Shown in pieces: positions 10,970-39,942 of a stretch of 64,000 bases of DNA. Made by a program: the position numbers and the translations under genes. The DNA is from Phlebopus portentosus (taxonomy: Eukaryota > Basidiomycota > Agaricomycetes > Boletales > Boletinellaceae). Each line of letters begins with the position of its first letter. Position 1 is the stretch's first letter. Where the stretch lies: positions 1,240,001 through 1,304,000 of the forward strand of contig JAYXKI010000015.1 of NCBI GenBank assembly GCA_037892935.1, in the 5' to 3' direction. Below the pieces are notes generated by a model. It was given only the letters and a program-made list of their open reading frames with translations. It ran no database searches and had not been told where the DNA came from.

Positions 10970-11488
10970 TTAATCCGCAGCATGGAACAACATGCGTGCG
11001 CGCCTCTCCAAGGCCACCATCCAGAAATGGACGGTGCTCTCATCCATCCCGGCGACCAACTCCTCGATGTCACTCACCTCAAGGACAGGCGCAACCGGCA
11101 TCCTCAGCACCTGCGCTGTTGCGTGCTGATGAGCTTCGCGCATCTCGCGTTCCACCTGCTCATTCCGCAGGCAACGCGCAGCCCTCCCATGCATAGCCAG
11201 CTCGCATCACCGCCTGGCCTTCGTGTGGCAGTAATCACAGGCCTGTCCAGGGAAACCCTCACAGACCTGGCCTGCCCTCGCACACCTCTCACACCCCTCA
11301 TCATGCACGACCCAGCCACCAGCAGCATGCTGCTGCTACTGCTGCTACCATCCCCGCCATCGCTTTGGCTTCCCTCATCCTCTTCCATTCGTTCTGCACT
11401 CGGAGACTTGCTCACAGCCGGAGGATTGCTGTTGCTGCTGTTGCTGTTGTCGCTGTTGTCGCAGTTGTTGTTGCTGTTGTTGGGACAT
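10970..11488 (-). pseudogene. Gypsy A antisense gene: polyQ + Zn2Cys6-like protein, decayed
   Basis: Read on the strand opposite to pol. It starts at an ATG at 11486-11488 with a Gln-rich run broken by Arg. After frame changes it passes through an acidic/serine-rich segment (about 11415-11320). A cysteine cluster follows at about 11295-11230 (CERCARAGQVC then CDYCHTKARR), giving CX2CX6CX7CX2CX7C if one TGA inside the last interval is read through as a mutated CGA. After the cluster comes an Arg/Glu-rich, probably helical tail ending near 10970. Two frameshifts and one stop make it a pseudogene. The cysteine spacing fits the fungal Zn(II)2Cys6 binuclear cluster, so DNA binding is plausible but not shown. 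Equivalent antisense genes occur in elements B and C. Confidence 0.7.
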
Positions 11489-11955
11489 GACGGAGAAGAG
11501 AGGATAGATGAATGGAACGCGTCGCGAACCGCGTTTTATGCATCGAGAATCTAGAGACGCCGAGTCTAACCCTATTGGGAGTGTGACTGTGGACAGTCAC
11601 AATTTCAAGAAACCGGGAGATGTAAGAAGCATCGACATGCTAGGCCCGAGATCACGCACGTGACATGTGTTCCATGGTAATCTGCATCGTAACAGCGGAA
11701 CTCAGTGCGGATCGATTCGATTCGAAGTGGAACAGACTACTGTAGCCTCTCGCACTCGACCGCTGCATAGGAAGAACTTTCGGACGCTCGAGCCACCCAG
11801 TCGAAAACTTACAAAGGCTGACTTAGCTAGCTTGTCTTACTAAACCCAGGCACAAGAGGTAAATTGAAGGATCTGCAATCGGCCCCCGACGCATTCCAAG
11901 TTTCGACGTGATGTGATGCACTCTGGCTTTTCTCCCATTTGAGTCCCATATGCGT
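11489..11955 (+). other. Probable Gypsy A 3' end / LTR start, no gene
   Basis: No coding sequence is recognised. It lies between the start of the A antisense gene and the left edge of element B, whose GCGT target duplication is at 11952-11955. The sequence that originally continued it is at 23896-24340, which carries a plus-strand TATA box. The simplest reading is that this stretch contains the purine tract and first part of A's 3' LTR, but its exact edge is not visible. Confidence 0.4.
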
Positions 11956-13532
11956 TGAAACTCCTGTGGACGTTCTGATGCCGGACAGGGAGTGTATAGT
12001 TCGAGGGGCTGCCCTAGAATACCTTCAAGCGGTCAGCAGAGAGTTACACCCGAGCTAAGGGCACGAAGGAGTGGAGGGAAATAGAGATATACAATGGAAG
12101 GGCTTGGTGAGAACCGGGGATATGAGGGAAGTGCTCAAGGAGGAATTCCGAGGGTAGGCTTCTCTCAAGATCGACGGTGGCGGTGCAAAGGCTAAATCGA
12201 CTCTCTGGCTCAGCTGCGAGCTCTGGACTAAAGCTGACTGACCCAAGGCACAAGAACTAAACTAACTAAGCTACGCTAGTCGAACCACCAACCCGAACAT
12301 GACTAATCGACTGTGCTAACACACTGGCAAGCGACTGCAGCCGATCTCACTTGTAGTCTAAAGTGTCAGAACGCAGCGTAATGATTCGAAACGCGATACG
12401 ATGGACGAAGGACAATTGCTGAGTGAGTCGAAATGTGATGCGAGGGATGGAGGTGCGAAACGATGACGTTTCCGATCGAAACAATGCGGAATAGCACCGG
12501 GCTGGTCTTGAGGAAGCGGAGAGTGAAAAGTCAAGAGGAAAGGGGTGATATGGTGTCCTTTCCCGACGACAATGGAGAGGAGAAGGTGTTGCGAGACCAA
12601 ATGCGAGCGGCATGCAGAGTAACTGGGTTACGAGCGAAACCGGGTGAAACGGATCGAAACACGTGAGGGGGTCTTGTTTCGGGTGAGAGAAGATAGAGAA
12701 GCCTTTATACGATGATGGCGAACTATACGAATGCACGAACGGCTCTACTGCGAAGAGAGATCACTGATCGACTGTACAGAACATGAAATGTCGTATATTA
12801 GACTATAGAGACGAGAGAGTCCACTATGAACAAGTAGACTAGAGGTCGAGAGGCTTTGAGACGATGTGAGAACTGCAAGCTAAGCTCCCACTAAGCTCCG
12901 ACTAAGCTGTCCTTCTACTATGAGAGTTGTGCTATATTTATACTAAATGTCCAAGGCTGAGCCTCCCAGCAGTCAGAGAACCTATGTCATAAAGAAAAGG
13001 GAACGCATATCGCTATCTACAAAGGAGAGGAGCGCATATGAATGGTTTAAGGGACACATAGGTCAAAAGGAACAATACTAAGCATGTCTGGAACGAGAGC
13101 ATAATGGATTAAAGGGGACGCATATAGAAAGGTCAGAATACGTGCAAAACCTTCGGAACCAGGTCTCTTTGAGCGGAATGAAGCGGAACTCGGGGAAACG
13201 ACTCGGAAGGGCTCTGGATAGCCTGACAAAGTAAGTCTGCGATGTTTAACAAAGGAGAGGGACTGAGGACGAGGTTGCAGGGTCAAATCTCTTTGTCTGG
13301 AACGCGGATCCGAGGTCCGGAGACTTGTGATCGATGCGTGCAAACTCGATGCCGTGATTCTCCCGTCTTGATGGCCGATCAAAGAACGGTGCACGTGCCA
13401 TCTGGACTATGGCGTTCTTGCTAAGTCTACTCGTTCGAGCGAAACCAGTCGAAACCGAGCGAAACCAGTCGGAACACCGCGGAACTGGTTGTAACGACTC
13501 CGTACGTTCCCAAGCTTCAGACTTACTCTTCA
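11956..13532 (-). repeat. 3' LTR of Gypsy B
   Basis: A 1577-bp LTR, near-identical to 22339-23895. On the element strand it begins TGAAGAGTAAG and ends GGAGTTTCA. The short open frames inside it are unrelated to known proteins and are not treated as genes. Confidence 0.93.
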
Positions 13533-13660
13533 TCTCCCGGGTTCATGAAATAGTGACCGTCCGCGGTCACTCCCATCTCAATCCGACGCGTGGGAGTTTC
13601 GAAGCATAACGCGTTGCGTCCAAATTTTCTTCCGCTGTCATCTCTTCTTTATTCTCCAAC

Positions 13661-15958
13661 ATGTTCACTTCCGAAGAAATCGTCGCGCTCTTGGGACCCA
13701 TCAACTCCGATGATGACTGGAAGGCAGTGGTCGTGAAATTCGAGGCAGACGTCGCCTTGGCCAGGTCAGCAATGGATGAACTAGACCATGGCGTCACGAC
13801 GGTAATTCTGCCAGATAAGACAAAACCAGTTGAATGGATCGCGCCTACAGGTTCGATGACGGTACGGTGGTTGACGAATCCAGTGATGGAATCTTTGATG
13901 GATGGGTGAAAGGCAACCACGGTGTGTAAACCACGCACTCTAATCAAGAATTTTTGTTAATGAAATTTGACAGGCACGGAAGGAAGCATTGGAGCAAGTC
14001 CGTCCCAAAGGAACGAAAGAAGTCTGGTTGGAGACGGCGTACTCCAACTACTGCGACACGGACGCTCTCCTACGGATGCTGTACTATGATTGACGGGAAT
14101 TTTACACCAGGATGGAGACCAAACGACGAGCTTTCTTCCACAGATGCAGGGTTCCATTCCATCCTGCCTCGTTCGATTTGACTCGTGGGTTCTTCTTGGG
14201 CGATTCGTTCCCTCCAATGTTCCTGAAACCGCGCCCTGACATCAAAAAGGCTCTCGAGAATGTGAGAATGGAGAGCTCCAAGTTCCAACAAACGGCGAGG
14301 TTCACCGGCAACACGGACTACACGCAAGACGAAGCTGTCCGGAGTCACGTAGGTACTTCTTCTTGTCTATCATCTCCATCTAATCCTTCCTACAGCAAGC
14401 GTTCGAATATTGGGAGGATATCGAGCAATGACACCTTCGTGCAGGGCACATCCTTCGCATCGACAGGGTGAAATTGAGAACGGTCCGGCTCCTCTGGGAA
14501 TACTACGGCTATTCCATCCTTCGTCGTCGGCTCTATCAACTCGTTCGTGCTCAGGAATCCAAAATGCAACAACAACAACAGCAACAACAACGATCCCAAC
14601 AAGTGCTGTCTGAACCTTCTCAACCTCTTTCTCAACCGCAACAACAACAGCAGCAACAACCAATGTTGCCTGAACAATTTCCTCCGCAACAACAACAACA
14701 GCAGCTACATCAAATGCTGCCTCAGGACGTCGATAGTCCAATGGAGGTTGATTCCGCTCCTCTTCAGGTCGAAACTGGCGAAACAATTGAGGACGGAGAG
14801 GTCGCGGAACCGGTCGAAATGCTCGAAACCGGAGCGGAACATTTGGAAGGGGCTAGCCGTTCTACACCCTTAACCTCACTCGAACCTACAATGCTCGAGA
14901 TTGAGCTTCGCGAGAGTGAAAGACGAGAAGAAGAAGAACGCGCTGCTCAACGCGCCAAAATCTCCCGGATGGCTGCCAAAATCGAGGCCAACATGCGACG
15001 ACGGCTGGATGCAGGGACTCGCTGCATTCGTGGTGTTCGGCAAGTGGTGGACTCGAACGAGGAGACTCCTGCGATTCAGGAAAGTCCTGAGAGTCCTCCT
15101 CCTGGTCATCGGGGAGAAGACTCCGTTGTCATGAGTCCAGGCGACGGAGGAATGGATATCGGTGATGTGGGAATGGAGGTGAATGAGCCATTTGAGGCGG
15201 ACGCAAGCCTTGAAGAGATTCAGGCTCTCAATACCGCGAGCAACAACAACAGCAACAACAACAACAACAATAGCGGTACTGCTGCTGTTCCGCGCGAAAC
15301 TGTCGAAACGCAAGCAAGACGCGTTTCTCTGGCACGACGAGTGTCTTCTCAACCTGAGGCTAGTCCTTCTAGGATTCCAGCTAATGGTGGTGGTTCTGGA
15401 GGTGACGACAACGATAATGACGATGACGACGACGACGACAACGATGGTGACAAATGATTGAGCGATGGGCGCGTTCGTCATCGGGTTCCATGCGACCAGT
15501 GCCAGAAGTGTGGCCATGATTACGTGGGTCTTCCACAGAGGACCTGCGCTCTGTGCTTGAAGCAGGCGAAGGGCTGTAGTCTAGCCACGAAGGGCAGGGC
15601 TGTAGCCGCAAAGCGTAAGGCAGCTCGGGAGGTGCGCGATCGGGAAGCAAAACACTGGAAAGTCACGGCTCTGGCGGCCAGATCAGTGGGTGGTCGCGTC
15701 GAGCATGAAGCTCTGCAGCGGGAGGTCGGGGAATCCGAGCTGCAGTTCGTGCTGGCGCGGATGGATCACCGGGACAAGGTCCTGTCCCGGATGCTGAACA
15801 AATTCAGCGTCCTCGTAGCGCAGGCGCATGCAGATCGTCGTCTGCTGCTCGAGTTGGCTGGGGTGAAGATGGGGGAAGGTGAAGACGAGGAAGAGGAAGA
15901 TAGAGGGGAAGTGGAGAGGGTTCGTCAGTCAAAGGGGAAAGGTAGGGCTTGGGAATAG
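13661..15958 (+). pseudogene. Gypsy B antisense gene: polyQ, acidic and Zn2Cys6-like protein, with stops
   Basis: Lies wholly inside element B on the opposite strand, starting (ATG 13661) about 130 bp from the LTR. Exon 1 covers about 13661-13921, with a GT..AG intron to about 13972. Exon 2 runs to about 14348 and a second intron to about 14394. Exon 3 encodes a Tyr/Leu/Arg-rich helix, two long Gln runs (about 14563-14705), acidic and Glu/Arg-rich segments, an Asn run, an Asp-rich run (about 15400-15455) and then the cysteine cluster (about 15491-15580). The cluster reads CDQC...CALCLKQAKGC with the third Cys replaced by Tyr. A Glu/Arg-rich tail ends at 15958. In-frame TGA codons near 13907, 14091, 14431 and 15455 break it, while the frame on both sides is kept. 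The function is unknown; a DNA-binding regulator of the element is one possibility. Confidence 0.7.
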
Positions 15959-16403
15959 AGTATAATTGTCGTGTATGCTCTATGTCCTGGTCGGACTTTT
16001 GTAAAATAGAAAAAGAAAAGGACAAAAGAAAAAGAAAAATAACTTGTACTGTATATAGTTGTTTTTATAGTTTATTTATACGATTTTGTTTCGGTTTTTG
16101 TGAATTTTTGTGTGATCGAGCGAGACTGAGTAATGACTAGAAGAATAGATCAAAGAATTCAAGGAACAGGATGAAAGGAAACTGATACGAAGTGAATTGA
16201 GGTGTTTCGCCATCGTTCCGCTGTTTTGAACGGCAAAACTGTGCGGAACTACGTATTAAGTAAAGTACACGCGTTAGATCCTATTGTGGATCACGCTAGC
16301 AGAGACGAAACTATAGAAGGAGAATTGGAAGATTAGAATTGATCAGAGGAGAGAGAGAGAATCGGAAATAAGTAAGGAGCATATATGAAGGGAAATGAAT
16401 GAT
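15959..16403. other. Convergent spacer between Gypsy B antisense gene and pol
   Basis: No gene is seen. It is AT-rich, with a purine-rich stretch near 16008-16045 and GA-rich sequence near 16345-16385. The 3' ends of the antisense gene and of pol face each other across it, so it should hold both transcription ends. Confidence 0.6.
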
Positions 16404-19400
16404 TTAATCGGAATTTTGGGACTCATCGTCAGGGAATTTCTCTGGCGAATCTTCTATTTCGGGTATGTCATCATCTTCATCCGATCCAATGAGCTTGGTC
16501 ACCGGAACAGTCAAATGCGAACGCGGGAAGTATGGAACCAGGTGAAACGCTGCTATTCGGAGTTTCGAAACCGCTCCATCGAGTTCGGCGATGATATACG
16601 AACCGCCTTGGGTGCGTCGAACTACCACGTAGGGGCCTAAATAGCGGGGTTTCATTTTACGATTGAGTTCCATCTTGATACGCGTGTTTCGCAAGAGTAC
16701 GAGGCTTCCTGGCTGAAAGTCGTAGTCCTTGATTCTATGCTTCTCCACCTTGGCAAACTGCTTCGCGTATGCATGCCTTGCATTCATGATGAGTTTCGCA
16801 ATGTGATCCAACTCTTCTGGACGTTTCTGGAGTTGTTTTGCACGTATTATGATGAGTTCCGACGTCGTAACTGGCGAATCGAGCGGCGGTGCCAGGTATG
16901 TTGCTTCTGCGAGGTCGAAAGGCAAAACTGCTTCGACTCCATGGGCCATGTAATACGGGGACATTCCTGTCGCTCTGTTGATTGTGATTCTTTCAGCCCA
17001 AAATACCGAGTCAGTGTGATCACTCCAACGCTTGTCATTACCGTCTGCAGCTTTAATCAAGGCTTCCTGTACGTCGAAATGTCTGCGTTCGACTAATCCA
17101 TTTGCGCGTGAGTTGTATGACGAAATCCAAATGTGGTTGATGTGATACCGCATCTTCAAGTAATCTAGCGCGGCGACGAATGGTGTGCCGTTATCTGTAA
17201 CAATTTCGGGGCATGCTCCATATCGACACAAAAGGTTCTGGAAGATAAACTGGCCTACGGTCTTACCAGTTTCTTCTTGAAGAAGTCTAAATTCGGGATA
17301 CGCGGTTAACGAACAACGCGCATGCACGATATATTGGAATCCACTCGATTTCGGCATGACCTTCGAGTCAATATGGATGCATTGAAACAGAGGGGCTACC
17401 TCCGGTACGTTCGGTGGGATAAGAATATTCTTCGTCTGGCGTATCTGGCACTCATGACAGGTGCGCATGAAATACTTCACGTCCTGTCCTAAGGACGGCC
17501 ACCAAAATCTCTCCAGCAGTCGCATTCGAGTGCAGAAAATTCCTTTGTGTCCTAGATCGCCATGAGCTTGCTTAACTAGGTCCCACCTGCATTTTGCTTC
17601 TATTACAACTTGGTGCCGGCCGTTCCGCGCCTTTCTCCACAGACGGCCTCCCTTCACGAAGAAGTCAGCTGCGTACCTGATTAGCTTTGCATAGCCACTG
17701 TCGCTAAGATTGTCTGGGCGTGTGAGATGCGTGATTAGCTTCGTGACGTCATCTAAGCGGCTATCCTTCCTTTTTGCGGATTCTGTAGAAGGAAATAGGT
17801 TCTCGGTCGCTGTTTCGCTAGGTGTTCTGCTCTGTTGCGCTACTTGGTATGTCGAAACCGGCTCTTCTATCGCAAAACCGTACGTTTCATCTACCCAGTC
17901 TTCATACATTTCATCCTGAGGGGGGTCTTCTTCAGCTGCTCTTTGTCTGGATAATCCATCGGTACACCGGAAATCGGCTGCTGGGATGTGTCTGAGCTTG
18001 AAACTGAAGAGAAGGATACCTGCGATCCATCTGTTAATGGTCGCATTGGGCTGTAGATCAGGATTGTTGATCATCCCCTTGATGTATGCTGCATCCATTT
18101 CGACTACTAGATTCCGGACTCTGATGAGATACAGTCGCATCACGTGCAGTGCCCAAAATAAGCCATATAACTCGATTTTCGGCTGTGAATACGATGCCTG
18201 GGTCTGATTCCAGTTAATAGAACCGAAACAATTGATCCTACGCTTTCCATCCGAGTGCTCTTGTCCTAAATACCAACCAACTCCAATAATAGACGAGTCT
18301 ACCGCCAGTATTACTTTGTTGTCTGACGCGTAGTCGATTGCGCACAGCGCCGGGCAAATAATAACGGCTTGCTTTAGTTCGTCCATTGCGTTCTGTTCTT
18401 CATCTGTCCACGCGAAAATCTGGTTCTTCCTTGTCATGCGGTACAATGGGCAAGCGAGTTTTGAATAATCTTTGACGAAAATCCGAAGGACTCCTACCGT
18501 TCCCAGAAATCCTCGGACTTCCGTCAGCGTTCTACATGGTGGCCAATCTCGTATCTTCTGTACTTTTGAATCATCTGGCTTGCGTCCCTGGTATGTCAAC
18601 TTGTGTCCAATGAATACGGCTGACTCCATGCATGGAACCAACTTCTTCCCTGAAAACGTTCCTCCTACAGCCTTCATTCGCTGCAAAATTCTGTTCACAT
18701 CACATATATGCTCATACACAAAACAACGAATCTCGGAGTTTCCCGGTATGGTCTCGTACGAACCGTCTGGTAGCTCGTATCGCGATTTTGGACCTAAACC
18801 GGGCGCATCGTCTGCGAAAGGGTTCGTAACGTGCGGAATCTCGTCCTGAAGGATAAAGGCCACGTCATTATGCATAATCTGCAAGGAATTGGTGTATCCC
18901 ATTGGTAGAACTGTCATTCGAAATGTTCCCAAGGGTGTCTGGAACGTAGTAAGATCTCGAGATTGTTCGTCCAGCTTTCTTTGGTTGAATGCCACAAATA
19001 AATCCAACTCCGTGTAACAAGCTCATCCACCACTGCTCTCCGTGATCATTTCGACGTTTGGTGGTACTGCCGAGTCCTTGACCGTAACCGCATTAAGATC
19101 CTGCAAGTCAATAATGGATCGCAACGTTTCTTTGTCTTTCTTTACCAAGCAAAACCATCTGGACCGATACGACGAATTCGATGGTTCAATAACCCCATTG
19201 CGAATCTTCTCTCGAATAAGTTCGAGGGCCTTGTCATGAATTCCCGGGGGAATTGGAATGCTCTTGTGCTGCCACGGTATATGCGGTATTGTGGGGATGC
19301 GTATCGGGTCGAAATACGTCGGATCGAGTGTTCCGCGTTCGGATTCGGTCTATGCTAATGCTTCTTCCTGCAACATAATTAGATTCTTCACTAATAACCT

Positions 19401-19825
19401 CTCCACCAGCCACAGAAAGGTATTCTCGTCGATCTTCAGTGCTTCCATCCTTTCAGCGGTTACACGACCCGTGGGTTCGAACGGCTTCAGTACAACTGGC
19501 ATCTCGGGCATCCCTCTCAACGGATCCGGATGCTGCCTTCGAACAATCCTGTACTCTTCTGGAAGGACTCCCGGGATTGGCCTGACTTTCTGCGCTACTC
19601 GTTTGTAAGCCATTACTGCCGCGTCTTCTTCTTCTGGGGTTTCTAAAACACATGAACGATATGACCGTTCTTCTTTGTCAGTAGTATAGCAATTTTTGTT
19701 TAATAAATAAGGCAATCGTTGGTTGAAAAGAGATGGGATCATGTGTGAGATAAATTCGAAATCATAAGAAAATACCTGAACCGGCAATTGGTTACTACCA
19801 TTCTCGTCTCGCCAATTTCTCTCAA
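16404..19825 (-). pseudogene. Gypsy B pol (RT-RNase H-integrase), two stops
   Basis: One reading frame over about 3.4 kb, in the -1 frame relative to gag. RT is recognisable by NSSYRSRWFCLVKKD, LDLFVAF and QTPLGTFRM, but the usual YIDD box reads FADD (about 18803). RNase H (AVDSSIIGVGWYL; VEMDAAYIKGM) and an HHCC zinc domain (HGDLGHKG; RTCHECQIRQ) follow. The integrase core has HIDSKVM, VTDNGTPF and NGLVERRHFD, and the C-terminal region has MKPRYLGPYVVVRRT. Stops are a TAG at about 19350 where element C has Trp, and a TGA at about 19023. No ATG is apparent at the start, so expression would have relied on frameshifting from gag. It is inactive as it stands. Confidence 0.92.
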
Positions 19826-22042: not shown

Positions 22043-22319
22043 GGATGAGAGGTTGGGAAGTTCTGAATCGGCGATGGTAGATGGGGAATGATCTAGGGAA
22101 TCGGTGTTGGAAGGAATGGCGCTAACGGATTGTCACAAGGGTGTTTCGCTGTGTTCCGCATTTTCCGCAGTGGAACGTATGTTGCGATTGACAATCCTAG
22201 GCCTTCGAGTCAGCGGCAAAACCTGATGTTCTACAGGGACTCGAGCGGATTGGCTACGTGTAACTCGTCTGCTAGACGAATTTGGCGGGGTATTCATAAT
22301 GGTTGGACAGTGAAATCCC

Positions 22320-22336
22320 CCTCGCCGTGGGCTCCA
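22320..22336 (-). promoter_or_regulatory. Gypsy B primer-binding site
   Basis: On the element strand TGGAGCCCACGGCGAGG starts two bases after the 5' LTR end. The same 17 bases occur at 26004-26020 in element C. The complement ends ...GGGCTCCA, as a tRNA 3' end with CCA preceded by U, so this is a canonical full-tRNA 3'-end primer site. Confidence 0.85.
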
Positions 22337-22338
22337 CT

Positions 22339-23895
22339 TGAAACTCCTGTGGACGTTCTGATGCCGGACAGGGAGTGTATAGTTCGAGGGGCTGCCCTAG
22401 AATACCTTCAAGCGGTCAGCAGAGAGTTACACCCGAGCTAAGGGCACGAAGGAGTGGAGGGAAATAGAGATATACAATGGAAGGGCTTGGTGAGAACTGG
22501 GGATATGAGGGAAGCGCTCAAGGAGGAATTCCGAGGGTAGGCTTCTCCCAAGATCGACGGTGGCGGTGCAAAGGCTAAATCGACTCTCCGGCTCAGCTGC
22601 GAGCTCTGGACTAAAGCCGACTGACCCAAGGCACAAGAACTAAACTAACTAAGCTACGCTAGTTGAACCACCAACCCGAACATGACTAATCGACTGTGCT
22701 AACACACTGGCAAGCGACTGCAGCCGATCTCACTCGTAGTCTAAAGTGTTGGAACGCGGCGTAACGATTCGAAACGCGATACGATGGACGAAGGACAATT
22801 GCTGAGTGAGTCGAAATGTGATGCAAGGGATGGAGGTGCGAAATGATGACGTTTCCGATCGAAATGATGCGGAATAGCACTGGGCTGGTCTTGAGGAAGC
22901 GGAGAGTGGAAAGTCAAGAGGAAAGGGGTGATATGGTGTCCTTTCCCGACGACAATGGAGAGGAGAAGGTGTTGCGAGACCAAATGTGAGCGGCATGCAG
23001 AGTAACTGGGTTACGAGCGAAACCGGGCGAAATGGATTGAAACTCATGAGGGGGTCTTGTTTCGGGTGAGAGAAGATAGAGAAGCCTTTATACGATGACG
23101 GCGAACTATACGAACGCACGAACGGCTCTACTGCGAAGAGAGATCACCGATCGACTGTACAGAACATGAAATGTCATATATTAGACTATAGAGATGAGAG
23201 AGTCCACTACGAACAAGTAGACTAGAGGTCGAGAGGCTTTGAGACAATGTGAGAACTGCAAGCTAAGCTCCCACTAAGCTCCGACTAAGCTGTCCTTCTA
23301 CTACGAGAGTCGTGCTGTATTTATACTAAACGTCCAAGGCTGAGCCTCCCAGCAGTCAGAGAACTTACGTCATAAAGAAAAGGGAACACATATCGCTATC
23401 TACAAAGGAGAGGAGCGCATATGAATGGTTTAAGGGACACATAGGTCAAAAGGAACAATACTAAGCATGTCTGGAACGAGAGCATAATGGATTAAAGGGG
23501 ACGCATATAGAAAGGTCAGAATATGTGCAAAACCTTTGGAACCGGGTCTCTTTGAGCGGAACAAAGCGGAACTCGGGGAAATGACTCGGAAGGGCTCTGG
23601 ATAGCCTGACAAAGTAAGTCTGCGATGTTTAACAAAGGAGAGGGACTGAGGACGAGGTTGCAGGGTCAAATCTCTTTGTCTGGAACGCGGATCCGAGGTC
23701 TGGAGACTTGTGATCAACGCGTGCAAACTCGATGCCGTGATTCTCCCATCTTGATGGCCGATCAAAGAACGGTGCACGTGCCATCTGGACTATGGCGTTC
23801 TTGCTAAGTCTACTCGTTTGAGCGAAACCAGTCAGAACACCGCAGAACTGGTCATAATGACTCTGTACGTTCCCAAGCTTCAGACTTACTCTTCA
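22339..23895 (-). repeat. 5' LTR of Gypsy B
   Basis: A 1557-bp LTR paired with 11956-13532. The right flank GCGT (23896-23899) matches the left flank of the element at 11952-11955. Confidence 0.93.
23085..23092 (-). promoter_or_regulatory. Probable TATA box of Gypsy B 5' LTR
   Basis: TATAAAGG on the element strand, followed by a pyrimidine-rich stretch. The same motif is conserved in the 3' LTR near 12704. The position within the LTR suits a U3/R boundary promoter. Confidence 0.45.
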
Positions 23896-24340
23896 GCGTT
23901 CATATATTTGTTTTGTCCCTTATGATCCCTATGCTCATTATTCCATGTGTGCTCACATTTCGTATTATGCCCTATGGTCATTATCTCACCACCTTCCAGA
24001 TATGCTCACCTCGTCTTTTGTTCCCATACGTTCCTTTATGATTATCACTTCCGATTTCCCTCCATTATGCTCCCTGATGCTCCGATGGCTCAGGTTCGGA
24101 CAAGGTTATAAATAGGCGAGCAACTCGTAGTAGAAAAAGGGAGTTTTAGCCCAGAGAGTTTTAGCAGACGACAGTTTAGCTCAGACTAGAAACCCACTCT
24201 ACTACAGTCGAGATCAATTCGACTCCTCCTGTACTCTCCTCGACTCTATCTCCCACAAATACATGATAGTTCTGTCTCATACACCTCAAGTCTCCTGCTC
24301 TGCAGTCATACCCGAGCCCAGTGTGATCAGTTTGACCCGT
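23896..24340 (+). other. Probable remainder of Gypsy A 3' LTR (with TATA box)
   Basis: No gene is seen. The stretch between elements B and C has a good plus-strand TATA box (TATAAATA at 24107-24114) about 230 bp before element C begins, with repeated GAGTTTTAG downstream. The orientation agrees with element A (plus), and B's insertion separates it from 11489-11955, so it is best read as part of A's LTR. Confidence 0.4.
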
Positions 24341-26000
24341 TGTAGTGCGCCGCACTAACCTGTACCGGTCCAGCGGCACAGGCCTGTAAGGGCTGTACTC
24401 CCCTATGCCATACCCAGGACACCCCGCGTACTATTGTCAGCAAACCAGCCTTCGCCGCCGTTACCCATAATACACCCTGCTCAGCGGCCGCCGGACCTTC
24501 GGCGGCCTAGGAACAGCACCCACGCTGCCACCGCCGCCGACCATACGAACCGGCGGCGACGCCTCCACTCCTATCTTATGATCACCTTGTCCCCCCTTCG
24601 ACCAAATCCTAGTTCCCCTTCTCCAGCCTCTCTCAAGAACGGTTCCGCCGAATCCGGTGACTCCGGGCTTCGGAAATGCTCGCACGGCGGCCGGACACGC
24701 TGCGGCGGATGTATATCGCGCCATCGCGGAGGTGTATGCCCGCCGCCGCGCCGGCTGGGTGAACGATAGCCGATCTCAGGTCCATTTCGTTGGTTGTTTC
24801 ATATTCTTATCATCCCACATTGTACGCCGAGCGCGGTAGCGCGCCCGGCGGCCGTCCGTATATTCCCCCTTTTAGTTTTATTTGACCCCTTGGCGTTTCA
24901 GATCCATATAGAGCGCGCCCTGACCGATCCGAACGGCCCCGACATTCGACACGACGTACCAGCACTCCGCCGTTCCGATTGGGGCGCCCCTAGGTCTTGG
25001 TGGCTTGGCGGCACATCTCGGCGGCGGCCCCCGCCGTCGCGGCGCGCCTGTCACGCCTCGCCGCCCGCCGCTTTAAGTGATATTTCTTATCAAGGACTCA
25101 TAGTATATATAGAGAGCATGTATCTATCCTAAAAACCAGCAGATATACACTCTAGAACACAGTTACCAGAGACCAACCACAAGTAAAGAAGCCCCCTTCA
25201 AGAAACCAGTATATACAGAGAACCAGACAGCCCGATCGGGCGAACTCCCGGTCACGTGCCCTCGCCGATCCCGTCCTGACGGCGTCGGCCCCGATCTCAC
25301 AGGATAGAAGCCGCTGGGCTCATTCGCCGCCCTGGTCATCTCCCTTCTGCGCAGCTGTCACTCGTCCAGTAATCGCTCCGAGGACTTCCCACTTATATCT
25401 GCATCGCCGCCCCTCTCTCTCTAGCCTCCGCCGCCGCTCGGTCCTGAGCATTTGGGATTCCTCTTCCACGTCCCGACGCAGCCGTCACTCCTCTAGTAAT
25501 CAATCCCGCGGTCTTCGATTTCTCCCTGCGCCTGAGGCCCCTTTTGTCTTTCGCCGCCGCTGCTCGGCTCAGATCGTTTGTGATTCTTCCTCAACGCCTC
25601 GACGCAGCCGTCACTCTTCTAGGCATCTGTTATATTTCCTCGACGTCTCGACGCAGCTGTCACTCTTCTTGTGTTCGCCGCCTCCGCCGGCGCCGCACCC
25701 AGTCCGCCGCACACAGTCTGCCGCTGCGACCCCTTCGCCGGTTCAGTCAGACTCGGCGATCCCTATACAGCCGTCGAGGCCCGGATCGCCGCGGCGAGTT
25801 ATTCGAAGGCGCGGCGGACCTGCCTAACGGGCAGATCCTTGTGCATCTGAGCTGAGTGTCGCTTCTGAAAGCCTGTAGGTAGTCTGTAGGTCTGGTAGGA
25901 CCTCCCCTTTTTCCTCTCGACACCTTTGACATCGCCTCTCTGTGGTCGAACGCCGCCGCCGCCGCCTTTGTCCCTATCTAGGAGAGTCTGATAGTCTACA
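24341..26000 (+). repeat. 5' LTR of Gypsy C
   Basis: A 1660-bp GC-rich LTR ending TCTACA directly before the primer-binding site. The several open frames inside it are shared with the 3' LTR and resemble no protein family, so they are not called as genes. Confidence 0.93.
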
Positions 26001-26003
26001 TTT

Positions 26004-26020
26004 TGGAGCCCACGGCGAGG
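26004..26020 (+). promoter_or_regulatory. Gypsy C primer-binding site
   Basis: TGGAGCCCACGGCGAGG, three bases after the LTR end. It is the same 17-mer as in element B. The complementary tRNA would end GGGCU-CCA; a U at the discriminator position is typical of tRNA-Cys, so tRNA-Cys is a reasonable but unproven guess for the primer. Confidence 0.85.
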
Positions 26021-26799: not shown

Positions 26800-29259
26800 A
26801 TGACCAGCACCCATACCGGCATTCCCGCCGCGCCCCCCGCAGCCTCAGGATCGACCCCGCCGCCCCCCCAACAGCCGTCCCCCGCCGCACCAGCCTATGC
26901 CGCACCAGCACCACCCCCCGCGGGCGCCTTTCCCCCTCTCCCAGACCTCAGTGACCCAGATACCCATCCATTAAGTGGTCCCAACCCACCAGTGCCAGGA
27001 GCTACAATGCCCTACCCGGGAGACCGCCGCGCGCCGAAGTTCAACGCCTCCGGCGACCCCGCGGAAATCCCCATCTTCTTTAACAGAGTCCGGCTATTTG
27101 GACGAAGCGCCGGCCTAACAGATGCACAAATGATTGCTTGGGCAAGATGCTACGCCGACGCTAAAGACGATCAGCTATGGTGCAAAAGGCCCGAAACGAG
27201 AGGAAACGACTTTATGGCATTCAAAGACGCTATCCTAAAGTACTACCCAAACGCTACGACCCAGTACACACTCGGCGACCTCCACAACCTTATTAACATA
27301 AGCCGCAACCAAATTATGCTGAACACCGCCGCCCTCGGCGAATACCATAGGAACTTTATCACCGTCTCCTCGTATCTTATCGACGCCGGCATGCTATCAG
27401 AGTTCGAACAGAAGCGTATGTTCAGAGAAGGCCTCCACCCGACGCTAAACAGAGAACTGGATCTTAATTTGCGGTTTGTCAAGCACGACCACCCTACCGG
27501 CGTGCCCTGGGACATCGACACAGTTGTAAGAGAACTAGAACGCATCCTAACCGGCGGCCGCCTCACAACCGCCGACCAACCACTGATGTATGCGGCGACA
27601 GCGGCCATGCCCACCTATACACAAGTTACGACGTACACGCCGCCGCCGCAACCCGGTGCTCCGGCCTATGGAGTCATCAACCAACCCCAGGTCAAGCAAG
27701 AAGAACCGTGGGTGTCCCTCCTAATCCAGAAAATGCGCGCCCTCCGTGAAGCCACCGAGAAGTCAAACCGCCGCGCTCCGCCGCCAACCGCAGGAGCCCC
27801 GCCGCAGCCCCGACAAGCCAGATTTAATGGAAAATGCGCCGTATGCGCCAGTGTAACGCACTCTACCCGCGACTGTCCCACCAAGATCTCCCTGATCCAG
27901 AGGGGAATCATGCTCGCCGACGCCAAAGGGTACTTGTACCCCTCCAATGGCCGACTTCCTCAGGGAGAACCGGGGATGTCAGTACTGGACAGGATTAATA
28001 AGCTCTTCATAGAGAATCCAAACTACGCACCAGTTGGCGTCCAGCTCCCCATTCAGCCCGTATCCGACACGCCGCCAAGGATCGCTCCGCCGAGGCAGGA
28101 TCCTACATATCAGGGACAACCGCGGACTCAACAATCCATGTATCAGTCACACCCTCCATCACAGGAATCTATGTACCAGGGCCTCAACCGGGCACCGCCT
28201 CCCTTAGCCTACAATACAAATCCGCCGAACGGCCTGCCGCCGCGAATCCAGGAATCGAACTACTTCGAGGCTATCACCCCAGAAGACCCCCCAGACGACG
28301 ATGCCTGCGACGGAGTCGCGCTCCTTTTTGAACAAGAAGAATCCCCCGAACAACCGCAGAATGCCTTCGCCGCCGCCGGAAGACGGCCAGGCCCCAGAGA
28401 AGTTTTCGACGGAATCGAAATCCCCACCAGAAAGCCGCCTCAAGACCCCAACCCGAAGTGGGGAGATAACAGCAAGAAGGGGAAACCACCCGGACAACGC
28501 CCGGCCCCGCCGCCGACGCCCTCGGCGCCGCACAGGGACGACGCGGCGGATCCGAAGCCACAATACCGAACCACCGTACCAGCATACGATGACGCCGCGG
28601 TATCAAACGTTTTCGACAAGATTCTGGACTCGGAAGTCACCCTGCCGATCCGAAGCCTGCTCGCCGCCTCTCCCGAAATCAGAAAGAAGTGTAAAGAATT
28701 TGTCACGGGGCGCCGAGAACTAATTAGGGAAAATCCTGATCACGAGATGGCAATGTACGCCTCAATCCCGAGGCCCACCTCGCCGGTTAACTTCGGCGAC
28801 GAAGATCCATCCGTCGCCCCGCCGAACATTCCCCTCCGCGAAATCGAGGTCTGGCTCGATGATAAATTCGAAGTAAAGGCTTTGCTCGACTCGGGGTCGA
28901 CATTTATCGCCGTGCCAAAAGAAGTATGGAAGGACCTCGGCTCCCCGACGATAATGAGCCAAGCAATCACAGTAGAAACCGCCGACAGACAAACCTCACG
29001 CTCGGCGGGACTCATCCCTCGCGTCAGACTCACCATAGGCGCCTTCTCTATTGTTGTCCAAGTCCAGGTCGTCGAAAAGGCCCCCTTTCAGTTACTATTA
29101 GGCCGGCCGTTTTTCGTACACACTAGGGCGCAAGTCATAGACGAGGCCGACGGCGAACAGACGCTATACCTTACTCATCCCGATACGAACGAAACCATGT
29201 CGATCCCGACGATTCAGCGCGGCGCCGGGACAGAAAAACAGCGCCCCCCTAGACAATGA
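26800..29259 (+). CDS. Gypsy C gag-protease (819 aa from first ATG)
   Basis: The frame is open from inside the LTR (25942) to 29259, but the first ATG in it is at 26800, used here as the start. From there: a Pro/Ala-rich N-terminus, then a retrotransposon Gag domain (about residues 70-250; LGEYHRNF motif). A CX2CX4HX4C zinc knuckle (CAVCASVTHSTRDC) sits near residue 346. A Pro/Gln-rich stretch with repeated YQ motifs is followed by an aspartic protease with LLDSGSTF near residue 696 and a LLGRPFF flap-side motif near 765. The 286 upstream codons are open and compositionally protein-like (RRAS repeats, acidic clusters), so an N-terminal extension through splicing or a non-ATG start is possible. 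The stop overlaps the pol start as ATGA. Confidence 0.85.
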   Translation: MTSTHTGIPAAPPAASGSTPPPPQQPSPAAPAYAAPAPPPAGAFPPLPDLSDPDTHPLSGPNPPVPGATMPYPGDRRAPKFNASGDPAEIPIFFNRVRLFGRSAGLTDAQMIAWARCYADAKDDQLWCKRPETRGNDFMAFKDAILKYYPNATTQYTLGDLHNLINISRNQIMLNTAALGEYHRNFITVSSYLIDAGMLSEFEQKRMFREGLHPTLNRELDLNLRFVKHDHPTGVPWDIDTVVRELERILTGGRLTTADQPLMYAATAAMPTYTQVTTYTPPPQPGAPAYGVINQPQVKQEEPWVSLLIQKMRALREATEKSNRRAPPPTAGAPPQPRQARFNGKCAVCASVTHSTRDCPTKISLIQRGIMLADAKGYLYPSNGRLPQGEPGMSVLDRINKLFIENPNYAPVGVQLPIQPVSDTPPRIAPPRQDPTYQGQPRTQQSMYQSHPPSQESMYQGLNRAPPPLAYNTNPPNGLPPRIQESNYFEAITPEDPPDDDACDGVALLFEQEESPEQPQNAFAAAGRRPGPREVFDGIEIPTRKPPQDPNPKWGDNSKKGKPPGQRPAPPPTPSAPHRDDAADPKPQYRTTVPAYDDAAVSNVFDKILDSEVTLPIRSLLAASPEIRKKCKEFVTGRRELIRENPDHEMAMYASIPRPTSPVNFGDEDPSVAPPNIPLREIEVWLDDKFEVKALLDSGSTFIAVPKEVWKDLGSPTIMSQAITVETADRQTSRSAGLIPRVRLTIGAFSIVVQVQVVEKAPFQLLLGRPFFVHTRAQVIDEADGEQTLYLTHPDTNETMSIPTIQRGAGTEKQRPPRQ

Positions 29260-32200
29260 CGTCCCAGCGGCGTCCGCCGGAACATATGCGGTGTATACCC
29301 CCAACCATACCCGACGCATATGTGCTCCATCACGGCCCGGCGACTGTAAATATCGCCTTCAATCCCCGCACCATAGATATCTCCACCTCATTTTCTGATC
29401 GATCCGCCGAAAAGGGTTTCACAGCCCAGAACAAAGCCCAAAAACATCCAGCCTTCTTCATTAACTCTATTTTCGACGATGAATCACTCCCCGTACGCAA
29501 CAGAATACCCCGCTCCAACAGCACTCTTAATACCACGGCCGCTCAACCGGCCGGGCACGCCTACAAGTACAAAAAGGTCGCCCAACGAACCAAACCTATA
29601 TCGGCGACCCTTCCAGAGGACTACCGCATCATACGCAAATCACACCCGCAGCCGCTCACAGACCTACCGAAGCTCCCGATCGATCCGCCGGAGTTCATTC
29701 CAGGACGCCGCTTTACACAAGAACGCTTCGACGCCCTAGACATCGACCCAACTGGCTTCCTCAGTGAGGAAGAAAAGAACCTCGCCTACTGGACCCTTCT
29801 ACAACATGAAGACGGCCTAGCTTGGGACGAAACAGAAAAGGGCTCCCTCGACTATCAATACTTCGCGCCGGTTCTAATTCCTACTGTCGACCATACGCCG
29901 TGGGTAATGAAAAACATCCCTATTCCGCCGGGGATCTTCAACGAAGTGGTTCGCATAATCAAAGACAAAATTAACTCCGGCGTCTACGAGCCGTCCAATT
30001 CCTCTTACCGCTCCCGATGGTTCTGCGTCGTTAAAAAGGATGGAAAATCCCTTCGGCTTGTACACGATCTCCAGCCACTCAACAAAGTCTCCATACGCGA
30101 CCCCTCCGTCCCTTACCCCACAGAACACATCGCCGAGACCTTCGGCGGCCATGCCTGCTACACCACACTCGATCTATTCGTCGCCTTCGACCAGAGGAAG
30201 CTCGACGTACGATCCCGCGACCTCACAACATTCCAAACACCTCTCGGCGCATTTCGCCTCACCTCGATTCCTATGGGATACACCAACTCGCAACAAATTA
30301 TGCACGCCGATGTCACGTTCGTCCTCAAAGATGAGATACCCCACGTCTGTATCCCATACATCGACGATATTCCTGTAAAAGGCCCTAAATCCCGATACGA
30401 GCTCGCCGCCGGAAACTACGAAACCATTCCGGGGAACCCGAACATCCGCCGCTTCATCTGGGAACATCTCAATGACGTCAACCGCGTCCTCCAACGCCTC
30501 AAAGTAGTCGGCGCCACTGTCTCGGGTAAGAAACTCATCATCGCCGCACCAGAAGCAGTCATTGTAGGACACACCTGTAATTACGCCGGCCGAGTCCCAG
30601 ACGCATCCAGGGTCAAGGCGATAATGGATTGGCCGCCGCCGCGGGATGTCCACGACGTTCGGGCATTCTTAGGTACGGCCGGCGTCCTTAGACACTTCGT
30701 TAAGAACTACGCCAGACTATCCGCCGGTCTCAACAAACTACTCTGCAAAGACCAGCCCTTCCTATTCGACGAAGACGCCCGCCGATCTATGGATCTACTA
30801 AAACACGCCGTAGCATCCTCCGGCGCCATCCGTTCTATTGACTACGAGTCAGGACAACCTGTTCATTTCTGTGTAGACTCCTCCGTTCATGGCTACGGCG
30901 CCATCTTGTTACAGCTCGGCGAAAACGGCGAAAGGGTCCCATCCCGTTTCATGTCCGGAACCTGGAACAACAGAGAACGAAACTACTCCCAGGCGAAGCT
31001 AGAACTCTTCGGCCTCTTCAGAGCTCTATATGAGGCGCGCATATACCTCGTCGGCATCGATCACTTTTTCGTCGAAGTCGACGCCAGCTATATTAAAGGC
31101 ATGATTAACAACCCAGACCTCCAACCCAACGCCACTATCAATAGATGGATCGCCGGCATCTTACTTTTCAATTTCACGATCATTCATACGCCGGCGCCCA
31201 AACACCTCGGCCCAGACGGCCTATCACGCCGCGGCGCCGCACAAACCGATCCGCCGCGAGACGAAGGCTTCGAAGAATGGATCGACCATCAATACTCCTT
31301 CCTAAACCAAGACCTTTCCGACACGGCCTATACCCCAAACAGCGAACCCGTACAACTCCCCGATCACAAAGCCTCCCAAAAAGGATTCAAAGACCTCGAT
31401 TGTATCAAGAAATTTCTCGCCACCCCATCCCGCCCCGCCGATCTTTCAGACGCCCAATTCAAACAGTTCGTACGCCGAGCCACTCGTTTCTTCCTACAGC
31501 ACGGCGAACTCTACAGAAAGAACGACAAAGGTCACGCCGCACTCGTTATTCCGCCGGAACGCCGAATTGTCATTATCAGAACTGCCCACGACGAACTCAG
31601 CCACAAAGGCTTCTTCTCTGTCAGAACAACGATCCAAGACCGATTCTGGTGGCCAGGAATGCATCAGGACATCAAATGGTATATCAGAACCTGCCACCAA
31701 TGCCAAACGAGGCAGTTTACGAAAATATATACCACGCCGCAAAGCCCGACGCCCGCGCCGCTATTCACCAGGGTGCATATAGACGTGATGTTAATGCCGC
31801 CCTCCGGCGGATTCAAGTATATCGTTCAGGCCTGAGACTCGCTCACCGGATACCCCGAATTCCGAATGCTGCGCAAAGATAACGCCGCCTCGATAGCACG
31901 CTTCGTTTTTGAAGATATTTTGTCAAGATGGGGACGAGTCGAGGAGATCGTAACCGACAACGGCGCCTCATTCTCCAAGGACTTACCCCGCCTTCTCGCC
32001 AAATACAATGTCCAGCACATCCGAATCTCGCCGTACAACTCAAGAGCCAACGGAATCATTGAGCGGCGACACCGGGACCTCAGAGAAACCCTAATGAAGC
32101 TCGCCGACGCAAGCCCAGACAAGTGGTCCCAGCATATATACCACGCCATTTGGGCTGAACGAATCACGATCCAACGCCGCACAGGCTATAGCCCATACTT

Positions 32201-32741
32201 TATGGCCCACGGCGTCGAACTAGTACTCCCCTTCGACCTCGCCGAACAGACGTACATCTCGCCGGCGGTCACCTCCAAGATGTCCGACGCACAACTCATC
32301 GCGGCGAGAGCAAGGGCACTCCAGAAACGACCCGAGGACCTCCAACGAGTCAAGGAATCTGTCATCCAGGGACGTTTCAAATCCATACAGGACTTCGAGA
32401 AAACCCACGCCGCAACAATTAAAGATTACAATTTCGCCCCCGGCTCACTTGTGCTGGTCCGGAACTCCCAGATAGAAAACGAGCTGAACAGGAAGACAAA
32501 GCCGAAATACCTAGGGCCCATGATTGTCGTGCGGCGAACCAAAGGAGGATCCTACGTTCTCGCCGAAGCAAACGGCGCTATTTCAGCACTTCGTTACGCA
32601 GCATTCAGAGTTATCCCCTACCACGCACACACTCGAATCATCGACTCAGTCGAAGACCTCACTCAGAAATCCACGCCGGAACTCGACAACCTAGCACAAG
32701 AGACCGCAGCGGATGACCTAGACGCCGAATCCAACTTATGA
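29256..32741 (+). pseudogene. Gypsy C pol (RT-RNase H-integrase), one in-frame TGA
   Basis: The ATG at 29256 overlaps the gag stop (ATGA), in the -1 frame relative to gag. RT has SSYRSRWFCVVKKDG and the catalytic box YIDD near residue 369. RNase H has CVDSSVHGYG and VEVDASYIKGM (about residues 535-625). The HHCC domain has HDELSHKGF and RTCHQCQTRQ (about 31588-31710). The integrase core has VHIDVML, VTDNGASF and NGIIERRHRD (D, D, E; about 31775-32075), and the C-terminal region has KPKYLGPMIVVRRT. The only defect seen is a TGA at 31834, where element A has the Arg codon CGA, a single CpG transition. Either this copy is dead or it depends on readthrough. Confidence 0.95.
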
Positions 32742-33183
32742 AGATCCGCCGAAGCCTCATAATCACCCTCTCCCTTATATACACATTCCCTAAGTCACCT
32801 ATTCGGACCCGCCGCTATCTTCACTCTCTCCAATCATCACCCAAACGACTGCGGCGAGACGCCGAGTCACCCCCTCCCACATTTTCACCTTACTCAAGTC
32901 ATTCTTTCGGCCCCGGCGCTATTTTTAGGGCGCCTATCCTCCCTATTTCACTCCAGCCCATCTCAATCTTACATTCCCTGATCTCACAAAGAACCATCCT
33001 CACAAGAAAAACATTCGGCTTGTTATTACAAGCCACTATAGTACACAAGAAAAAGAAAAATACAATATTTTTGTACTTTCATATTTTTCCTATTTTTTTT
33101 AATTTTTTTTTTTTCGGCCCAAGGGCGCTTCATGGTCGCCGAAGACCACGAGCCAACGCCGTTTGCGTCGTTTGGCTCGCCGC
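32742..33183. other. Convergent spacer between Gypsy C pol and antisense gene
   Basis: No gene is seen. It contains A-rich (near 33048-33066) and T-rich (33090-33113) runs. As in elements A and B, pol and the antisense gene end toward each other here, and both probably terminate in this stretch. Confidence 0.65.
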
Positions 33184-34842
33184 CTATCCACGGCGTTCAC
33201 CCTGGGCCTTTTCCTCCACCCCCCTACCCGCACTCTCTCCCGCCAACGTCGACTCCATCCCCTCCAGCTGCCGGCGGAGAGCGAGGACCTCCTGCTGCGC
33301 CAGGAAGGTCACGTCCGACTCCAAGATATCGCACCACCGGTGCGATACCCGGCACGCCTGGCACAGGAGCGCCGGCGGGCGCCTCGTGCACATCTCCCCA
33401 CGCCCGATGCACCGCTCGCACCCCGGCGACACGAACTCGAGGAGGCGGCGGCTCTGACCCCTGGGGAGCCGCCCCACCCTCTCGAACTCCCAACCCCCCT
33501 CCTCCCTCTGAATATTATAGTCAGAGAGTGTCACGAACAAAATTCAAGACAGCACTCACCGCCCCGTCCCTTCTTCCTGTCGCCTCCTCTTTCGCCCTGC
33601 CCCCACCCGAGGCCGCCGCTCCCGGCGCTCTTGCTCGTTTCGCCGGCGGCTCGACCACCGGCTCACGTACGCGCTTCGGAAGGGGAGGCACCTAGAAACG
33701 AAACATGTCAGTGAAGAATAAGATCCAGGACATAAAACACACATCGACATATACCTCCTTTCCACTCGACCTTTTCGCTCGCGTTGACCCCTCATCAGAC
33801 TCAACCTCAAGAGTAATGGTCTTTCCCGTGACCGTCCCCGAGCGTCCCCCTCGCGTCACTCGACCACTCTCCCCTTGAGCGTCTCGCTGGACGAACCCGC
33901 CACCTCAAGACCAGGGATCGACGACCCAGGAAGAGTAATCGTCTTTCCCGTCGCCGGCCTGGCCGCGGGACGCGCCTGCACCTTCGCTTTGGTGCTCGTT
34001 TTAGGCGCCGCGACCTAAGAAGATATTATCAGAGACAGTAAAAAACAAGATTCAAGACAACGACTTACCAGGTTCCCCGCCTCATCGCGCCCTGAGGACC
34101 TACAGAAGGCCTCGACGACCTCCGGGCCCCCAACTCGCAGGGTGGCGAGCGTCTTGAGGAAGGAGGCTTTCGCCTCCTCGGCCACCTTCGCCGCGCTCCG
34201 CTTCGCCTCCTCACGAGCCTCCTCCTCCCGGCGCTCGGCCAGCCTCTCCGCGACGCGTCGGAGGCGATTCACCTCCGACTGGGCGGCCTTGTCCAACGCC
34301 TCGGCGGCGTCCTTAGCCTCCCCGGCGGCCATCCGCACCACCGTCGCCCGGTTCACCAACCACCTCCCCGCGCAATAATATTCGGGCTTTTCAGCCCTCG
34401 CGTCGTCGGATAGCGCGGGGAAGCGCTCCCCAAGCCCCTTCTGAAAAAGTAAACCAGATTGTCAGCTCACACGGTTATTATCAAGGGAACGCAAATTTAC
34501 CAAGAGCCCATCGAGCTCATCAGCAGCGGGCCCCTCATCGTTTCGGGCCCGCTCGATCCACCCCCTCACCGCCGTAATGGCCGCCCACACGGCCGCGTCC
34601 AGTTCTTCCCCCCCCTCCCCCCCCTCCCCACCCTCCTCCTCCGTCTCCCCCTGCGACTCCGGCGGGACCTCTTGCCCGCTGGGGGCCCGCGACATCCCGC
34701 CCGCGGCAGGAGCCCCCGTCGCCGCCCCGGCGTCCACCTCCATCTGGTCGGAGGGAGCCTCCGACCCCTCCCTGCTGTTGTTGCTGCTGCTGTCGCTGCC
34801 GCTGTCGCTGCTGCTGCTGACGCTGAGAATCGTCGGCGCCAT
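33184..34842 (-). CDS. Gypsy C antisense gene: Ser/acidic + Zn2Cys6-like protein, multi-exon
   Basis: Opposite strand to gag-pol. The proposed exons are 34842-34501, 34440-34069, 34014-33755, 33691-33560 and 33507-33184, each bounded by GT..AG introns of about 50-65 nt. Exon 1 (ATG at 34840-34842) is Ser/Asp/Gly/Glu-rich. Exon 2 is an Ala/Glu/Arg-rich probable coiled coil. Exons 3-4 are Lys/Arg/Pro-rich with a repeated TGKTITL motif. Exon 5 carries CERCIGRGEMC...LCQACRVSHRWC (about 33426-33330), that is CX2CX6CX8CX2CX6C, exactly the fungal Zn(II)2Cys6 spacing, followed by a helical tail with LAQQEVLALRRQLEGM. Exon 3 contains one TGA or frame disagreement near 33860-33880, so either the model there is wrong or the copy has a lesion. 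The gene resembles no named transcription factor beyond the cluster. It matches the antisense genes of A and B in place and motif. Confidence 0.7.
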
Positions 34843-39745: not shown

Positions 39746-39942
39746 CCAATCATGTCAATCTGCCGATCATTGCAGATCTGTATTCTATTCAGGATTCCTC
39801 CTTACACACTTATATTTTCACAAATTCTACTAAATATTTTAACTTAAAAAATTGTAAATATATTATAAAGCTTATTTATCTTCCTATAAGCAATTCAATA
39901 ATAAGCAATAAATGATATAGGCAACTCTACACAGATCAGCAC

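Follow-up and report, generated by a model that had tools for sequence, protein, structure and literature searches.

What is the gene that lies on the reverse strand, between pol and the 3' LTR, of three Ty3/gypsy elements (A, B and C), and what might its protein do for them? The elements lie together in the window, meaning the whole 64-kb stretch of DNA that was analysed. A first-pass annotation had placed an opposite-strand gene with a cysteine cluster in this gap of all three elements. We confirmed this observation: in A, B and C alike, the reverse-strand gene sits between pol and the 3' LTR (Table 1).

A reverse-strand gene in three element families

The gene is not limited to these three sequences, as a genome-wide search gave 67 B-type, 23 A-type and 33 C-type matches. 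Integrase matches of families A, B and C, which share as little as about 51% identity with one another, had the antisense gene downstream on the opposite strand in 112 of 119 cases; among other integrase matches, only 2 of 150 had it within 5 kb, and both were more than 3 kb off. The set of 119 consisted of 60 B, 27 A and 32 C rows hand-picked from two integrase searches, with 16 C-type rows and 2 fragments excluded from the first search and 103 rows (A/B-type matches, fragments, and three at 26% identity) excluded from the second. Six family A integrase matches stood without the gene, and a later look revealed an A-type remnant at one of the six. Place and strand are those of the antisense accessory ORFs of Ty3/gypsy elements, and presence in the majority of copies differs from a one-off capture. 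These data support the conclusion that the antisense gene is a real gene tied to the A/B/C lineage.

Table 1. Positions of element landmarks, antisense genes, cysteine clusters and palindromes in the window.
Feature	Position	Strand	Remarks
3' LTR of B	11956..13532	-	95.3% identical to 5' LTR; TSD GCGT; B inserted in A's own LTR
5' LTR of B	22339..23895	-	LTR pair
pol ORF of B, integrase H2C2 domain	16404..19007	-	Pfam PF17921, E 1.8e-15, 400-aa C-terminal piece
5' LTR of C	24341..26000	+	98.4% identical to 3' LTR
3' LTR of C	37056..38730	+	LTR pair
pol of C	29256..32741	+	two overlapping ORFs in window copy
A antisense gene remnant	10892..11488	-	internal deletion of ~1.3 kb; TGA within cluster
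B antisense gene	13661..15958	+	exons 13661-13921, 13974-14348, 14396-15958; 732-codon continuous frame; four premature stops here
C antisense gene	33184..34842	-	five exons; introns 34500-34441, 34068-34015, 33754-33692, 33559-33508
Cys cluster of A	11204..11293	-	CX2CX6CX7CX2CX7C; one stop inside, window copy
Cys cluster of B	15491..15577	+	third Cys is Tyr in window copy only
Cys cluster of C	33331..33420	-	CX2CX6CX8CX2CX6C
18-bp palindrome of B	13553..13570	+	7-bp arms; 90 bp before antisense ATG; 20 bp from 3' LTR inner edge
18-bp palindrome of A	11583..11600	-	compensating pair of arm changes vs B; 94 bp before antisense ATG

Gene structure and selection

The genes proposed earlier were real but proved to be longer than described, and those of B and C are split by introns, all of them canonical and frame-preserving. 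The B structure matches the submitter gene models P0007 and P0009. All four C introns had GT..AG in 26 of 30 C-type copies, and 6 of the 30 had a spliced frame that ran uninterrupted from its ATG to its stop; the window copy of C has one frameshift, in exon 3. Open frames of at least 478 codons contained 28/67 B-type matches, and open frames of at least 400 codons contained 17/23 A-type matches. The ~1.3 kb absent from the window copy of A exists in other A copies of the gene. The window copies are damaged; other copies are open.

The gene had been suggested to be kept by selection, and we computed dN/dS (omega) across copies. For B, internal-branch omega was 0.23 in the N-terminal part (p 1.3e-6) and 0.25 in the C-terminal part (p 1.3e-3), in an analysis limited to the 30 of 67 matches with the best scores, a choice that biases the C-terminal part and not directly the N-terminal part. 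The initial analysis, with every one of 30 C and 20 A copies included, gave antisense omegas of 0.92 (C) and 1.08 (A), that is, no selection, with integrase at 0.70. Copies below 85% identity or coverage were removed afterwards (L044, L061, L064 and L066 from C; L085 and L088 from A). Without its four diverged copies, the C gene had an internal-branch omega of 0.33 (p 3e-4), under a threshold that was picked after the first run had been seen and that strengthened the integrase control alongside, from 0.70 to 0.16. The integrase values for comparison with the B and C runs were 0.18 and 0.16, respectively. Same-strand shifted frames gave omega >2. The cluster exon of C by itself carried no selection signal, and the A analysis had low power. 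Purifying selection on the antisense gene is supported in B and C, and the earlier claim stands for these two families.

The cysteine cluster

The cluster spacing common to A, B and C, CX2CX6CX7-8CX2CX6-7C, was as first described, with coordinates offset by a few bases. When the 64 kb were scanned for exact matches in all six frames, the pattern turned up in A and C only (B has Tyr at its third Cys), so it is not background. All six cysteines were kept in 78 of 80 copies (19/20 A, 29/30 B and 30/30 C, examined from 23, 67 and 33 matches, respectively), and the sole B exception was the window copy. The Tyr of B and the TGA of A, both noted previously, were present in the window, but they are damage of these particular copies. 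The six cysteines are invariant over A, B, C and a cellular relative; the non-A types are 26–31% identical to A.

Does the cluster belong to the fungal Zn(II)2Cys6 family (PF00172), as had been supposed? The spacing agrees with that family's six-cysteine pattern, CX2CX6CXnCX2CX6-8C, and a long helix is predicted after the cluster, but membership was not supported. Seven antisense or cellular-relative proteins were scanned and none reached the PF00172 gathering cut-off of 21 bits, three of them giving sub-threshold matches of 10.6–11.5 bits; the genome has 27 PF00172 places, none of which is an antisense match. In addition, the antisense proteins carry the cluster in their C-terminal part and are missing the basic first-half signature between the second and third Cys.

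We scored the two halves of each cluster on matrices made from the genome's own PF00172 domains (9 of the 11 pattern-matching domains, out of 27 matches; one near-duplicate was excluded, as was one domain whose final spacing differed). First halves scored below zero on the first-half matrix in 7/7 proteins and higher on the second-half matrix in 7/7, whereas second halves favoured the first-half matrix in 4/7. The swapped order beat the direct order in 6/7 cases, which are not independent (shuffle p 0.013–0.46). This result is only suggestive that the halves of a Zn2Cys6 module stand in swapped order. We rejected a plain assignment to the family because scores fall below the Pfam cut-off and the first half is more like the second half of that family, and a nucleocapsid-type CCHC knuckle because its spacing differs.

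Structural modelling, also proposed at the outset, gave a predicted fold that may weakly resemble that of the family. AlphaFold2 modelled the C-terminal part of the A protein (pLDDT 81) with a short helix past the first CxxC and the long helix starting from the second. Compared with 350,542 PDB chains, the top two matches of this model were the Pho7 DNA-binding domain, at very weak similarity (E 5.3 and 6.1). The model of full-length B (pLDDT 44) was set aside. Searching PDB sequences with P0001 or alignment A1 returned low-complexity matches only.

Relatives were found in Sanghuangporus only. Apparently single-copy cellular relatives occur at C3:2959485 and C19:108156; a cellular relative is identical to an S. 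sanghuang protein at 214/215 residues, and its cluster is kept in two more species.

Possible roles of the antisense protein

HBZ of HTLV-1 is a bZIP protein, whereas Pfam found no bZIP domain in P0001–P0004. The likeness to HBZ lies in an antisense gene, here for a putative regulator, near a retroelement 3' LTR (PMC11963269). Plant Ty3/gypsy elements have antisense additional ORFs (aORF-3R) in Grande (gene23), RIRE2 and Retand; nuclear location has been shown for Grande, DNA binding is predicted for the Retand TRP28 domain, and a regulatory role has been proposed (PMC7264820, PMC11963269). Here the host is a fungus, and the system adds introns (B and C), measured selection, cellular relatives and a six-cysteine cluster, the last unmentioned in the passages of those sources that treat the plant ORFs. 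Closer in host is brtn of Boty in Botrytis cinerea, likewise an antisense gene in the pol–3' LTR gap of a fungal gypsy-type element (PMC7264820, PMC8365987, PMC4227169); the Boty host is an ascomycete, and the passages concerned mention no zinc cluster. Among the papers listed by searches of an open-access library, none described an antisense gene with six such cysteines in a Ty3 element of a fungus. Antisense accessory ORFs are already known from plant elements and Boty, and the six-cysteine form in a fungal Ty3 lineage would be new.

A possible target site lies shortly before the start codons of the A and B antisense genes. The palindrome found there is present in 56/67 B and 23/23 A antisense genes, occurs 91 times genome-wide versus 2 times for the reversed pattern, and gives a strong hairpin of 7 bp on both strands. 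The C-family region held four short inverted repeats, two close to the start of the antisense gene and two close to the edge of the LTR, and none resembled this palindrome.

The reading we prefer, and in which we place about even confidence, is that of a protein-coding accessory gene of one fungal Ty3/gypsy clade whose product would be a nuclear DNA-binding regulator of the element. In A and B, antisense transcription toward pol would probably start from a promoter located at the 3' LTR or slightly inward of it, and in C from the region that the gene shares with a divergent sense ORF. The predicted protein has a low-complexity N-terminal part, either acidic or Gln/Ser-rich, together with basic patches and the six-cysteine cluster, which most likely binds two zincs. 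The long predicted helix could dimerise the protein, which may regulate most likely its own antisense unit, with the palindrome as candidate site. An unlikely elaboration would have a clade of mushroom Ty3 elements encode a zinc-cluster regulator with swapped Zn2Cys6 halves that sits as a helix dimer on its own co-varying palindrome, with the cellular relatives kept by the mushroom as either donor or domesticated copy now acting on elements.

It is scarcely credible that the frame and its cysteines reflect chance or a by-product of sense-strand coding. One opposite-strand frame did show an equally low omega, but stops interrupt it, and we rejected sense-strand coding as the cause; a chance ORF was rejected on the open copy L014, which has stops in all five other frames. 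Moreover, open frames of 400–539 codons recur in many copies, and submitters annotated spliced gene models in other assemblies. A captured host gene, carried as a passenger without present function, would fit the apparently single-copy cellular relatives, but the gene is found in nearly all copies of three diverged families and is under purifying selection; we disfavour this very improbable reading.

Two further readings give the locus a function. Since pol and the antisense gene are convergent, with ends ~450 bp apart, the antisense RNA might itself lower or silence the element via double-stranded RNA, the protein being secondary, and a like role has been proposed for plant elements in a passage of PMC7264820. 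This we judge quite improbable, because codon-level selection and frame-preserving introns indicate that the protein sequence is kept. Possible but doubtful is a role in element replication or nuclear entry, in which the protein would bind RNA, cDNA or integrase, with the cluster serving as a scaffold or for nucleic-acid binding. All three proteins have basic patches and a tail predicted to be helical, which is consistent with such a role, as is the hairpin-forming palindrome, lying so near the 3' LTR edge and the expected polypurine tract. However, the cysteines are spaced as in a fungal DNA-binding cluster and unlike those of a CCHC knuckle, and one would hardly expect a protein needed along with Gag to be encoded on the opposite strand.

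What antisense accessory genes do in LTR retrotransposons is posed as an open question in passages of reviews (PMC7264820, PMC11963269). In the present lineage many copies are open, purifying selection can be measured, the metal-cluster-like module is defined, a candidate DNA site co-varies between families, and the cultivable genus has cellular relatives that are apparently single-copy, so this question is now testable.

Antisense genes of the A, B and C elements

The 64-kb window, from a genome of 38.4 Mb, contained three Ty3/gypsy elements (A, B and C), and element B had landed in an LTR of element A (Table). As the first-pass annotation had described, each element carried one opposite-strand gene between pol and the 3' LTR, with its 3' end facing pol. 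With the B and C proteins as queries, we found genome-wide matches of B type (67), A type (23) and C type (33), plus one cellular gene. An own-type antisense gene lay downstream on the opposite strand of 112 of the 119 integrase matches of these families (B 59/60, A 21/27, C 32/32). Median gaps between integrase and antisense gene were 453 bp (B), 581 bp (A) and 446 bp (C). Counted in reverse, 59/67 B-type, 21/23 A-type and 32/33 C-type genes were paired with an integrase (the A list for this pairing had 24 entries, cellular gene included). The best 150 integrase-domain matches in the genome belonged to other elements; an antisense gene lay within 5 kb of 2 of these, in both cases more than 3 kb away. 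Judged from integrase identity, which was about 75% between A and B and about 51% for C, the antisense gene is old within the A/B/C clade.

Features of the window
Feature	Position	Strand	Remarks
Copia-like ORF	7661-8716	-	resembles a reverse transcriptase fragment; presumably Copia-type, judged by eye from a motif
Deletion joint, A antisense gene	11427-11445		18-bp overlap within CAG/CAA-type repeats
Element B	11956-23895 (LTRs 11956-13532, 22339-23895)	-	LTR identity 95.3%; 4-bp duplication GCGT; A sequence resumes at 23896
B antisense gene	exons 13661-13921, 13974-14348, 14396-15958		one 732-codon frame; four premature stops in window copy
Element C	LTRs 24341-26000, 37056-38730	+	LTR identity 98.4%
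C antisense exon 1, part	about 34560-34640	-	long G runs
Extra sense ORF of C	35342-36931	+	529 codons; between antisense gene and 3' LTR, divergent from antisense gene
Tandem repeats, 145 bp	35441-35875		start of the extra sense ORF; length varies between copies
Tandem repeats, 91-98 bp	39396-39766		four units

The extra sense ORF of element C had no match in Pfam, and 11 genome matches spanned 500 or more of the 528 residues.

Selection and decay

The exon layout of the B antisense gene was much like that of P0007 and P0009, gene models made by others in the Sanghuangporus sanghuang and S. weigelae assemblies. The C gene comprised five exons, with GT..AG at all four introns in 26/30 copies. 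Its spliced frame was open from ATG to stop in 6/30 copies; the window copy, with a frameshift in exon 3, was not among these. Many C copies lost frame at about codons 86-104 of exon 1, which may reflect slippage or sequencing error. The A gene of the window was a remnant lacking ~1.3 kb, as if by recombination between CAG/CAA-type repeats. Genome-wide, 17/23 A-type matches lay inside open frames of at least 400 codons, and 28/67 B-type matches inside open frames of at least 478 codons. Numerous stops and the loss of a cysteine look like post-insertion decay: 92 of the 131 terminal-branch changes in the B C-part, silent and missense taken together, fell at CpG. The cysteine loss in B and the TGA in A noted by the first-pass annotation were damage to the window copies.

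Codon changes were mapped by parsimony onto trees of copies, and missense and silent changes were compared with an expectation preserving mutation type and CpG context. Internal branches hold mostly changes in elements that later copied themselves. On these branches, the B C-part had an omega of 0.25, from 8 missense and 14 silent changes (p 1.3e-3), and the B N-part an omega of 0.23, from 15 missense and 31 silent changes (p 1.3e-6); the B integrase gave 0.18. The spliced C gene gave 0.33 with four diverged copies removed (19 missense, 22 silent, p 3e-4) and 0.92 with all 30 copies, and the C integrase gave 0.16. Terminal branches were closer to neutral for the C gene (0.81; its integrase 0.63) and for the B N-part (0.65; B integrase 0.69). 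The exception was the B C-part (0.36), by whose similarity the B copies had been picked. Same-strand shifted frames gave omega >2. One opposite-strand frame, whose silent positions coincide, gave the same values (0.30, 0.33), yet it contains stops. The proposal that selection has kept the gene was supported for B and, with the diverged copies removed, for C. Against it stood the value from all 30 C copies, the lack of signal in the C cluster exon on its own (6 missense, 2 silent internal changes), the A value (omega 0.80, p 0.7, from 11 internal changes only) and the values of the opposite-strand frame. We concluded that the antisense gene is almost certainly real and kept.

A palindrome before the A and B genes

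In the stretch that separates the 3' LTR from the antisense ATG, elements A and B shared an 18-bp palindrome (arms 7, spacer 4), ending 94 bp (A) or 90 bp (B) before that ATG; nothing like it was seen in element C. Allowing one mismatch, the genome held 91 matches, versus 2 for the reversed pattern; 80 of the 91 lay upstream of antisense genes of the A or B type, and 79 of these shared the strand of the gene. The varying arm pair was T and A in 23/23 A sites and C and G in 50/57 B sites. Because this paired change leaves the symmetry intact, the palindrome is a candidate dimer site or hairpin, for which such symmetry across families would be expected. The RNA of either strand folds with all 7 pairs. 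There is one palindrome per element, near the expected place of the polypurine tract, and thus a role in reverse transcription is possible.

Relatives and the antisense product

Three protein searches, which rely on shared 5-residue words (two covered about 8000 candidates), returned at least 12 distinct proteins among the matches listed, all from Sanghuangporus (S. sanghuang, S. baumii, S. vaninii, S. weigelae). The cellular gene (C3:2959485-2960129; L108:786-1430) was identical at 214/215 positions to P0012 of S. sanghuang and at 205/215 to P0014 of S. vaninii, while P0012 and P0015 of S. weigelae shared 297/374. The cluster stretch was identical across these three proteins; the cellular gene carries this cluster as well and is retained in three or more further proteomes of Sanghuangporus. 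It had no second close copy in the source genome and, among the matches listed, no integrase close by; it is apparently a single-copy cellular gene. A further six-cysteine gene at C19:108156 (L112:484-580 region) looked cellular; its two halves are separated by X9, and its tail is very basic.

The main claim of the first-pass annotation was upheld; the Zn2Cys6 label for the cluster was not borne out by that family's own test. In position and orientation, antisense between pol and the 3' LTR, the A/B/C gene resembles ORFs of the plant elements Grande, RIRE2 and Retand (PMC7264820, PMC11963269) and brtn of Boty in Botrytis (PMC7264820, PMC8365987, PMC4227169). In these sources, the function of the plant and Boty ORFs is called unknown, the Grande product is placed in the nucleus, and DNA binding is predicted for Retand (the latter two in PMC7264820, PMC11963269). 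Searches of the open-access literature listed no paper on fungal elements that carry an antisense gene with six cysteines; therefore, we regard this gene as a new form of a known gene type. The best reading of its product, to which we give about even credence, is a putative nuclear DNA-binding regulator.
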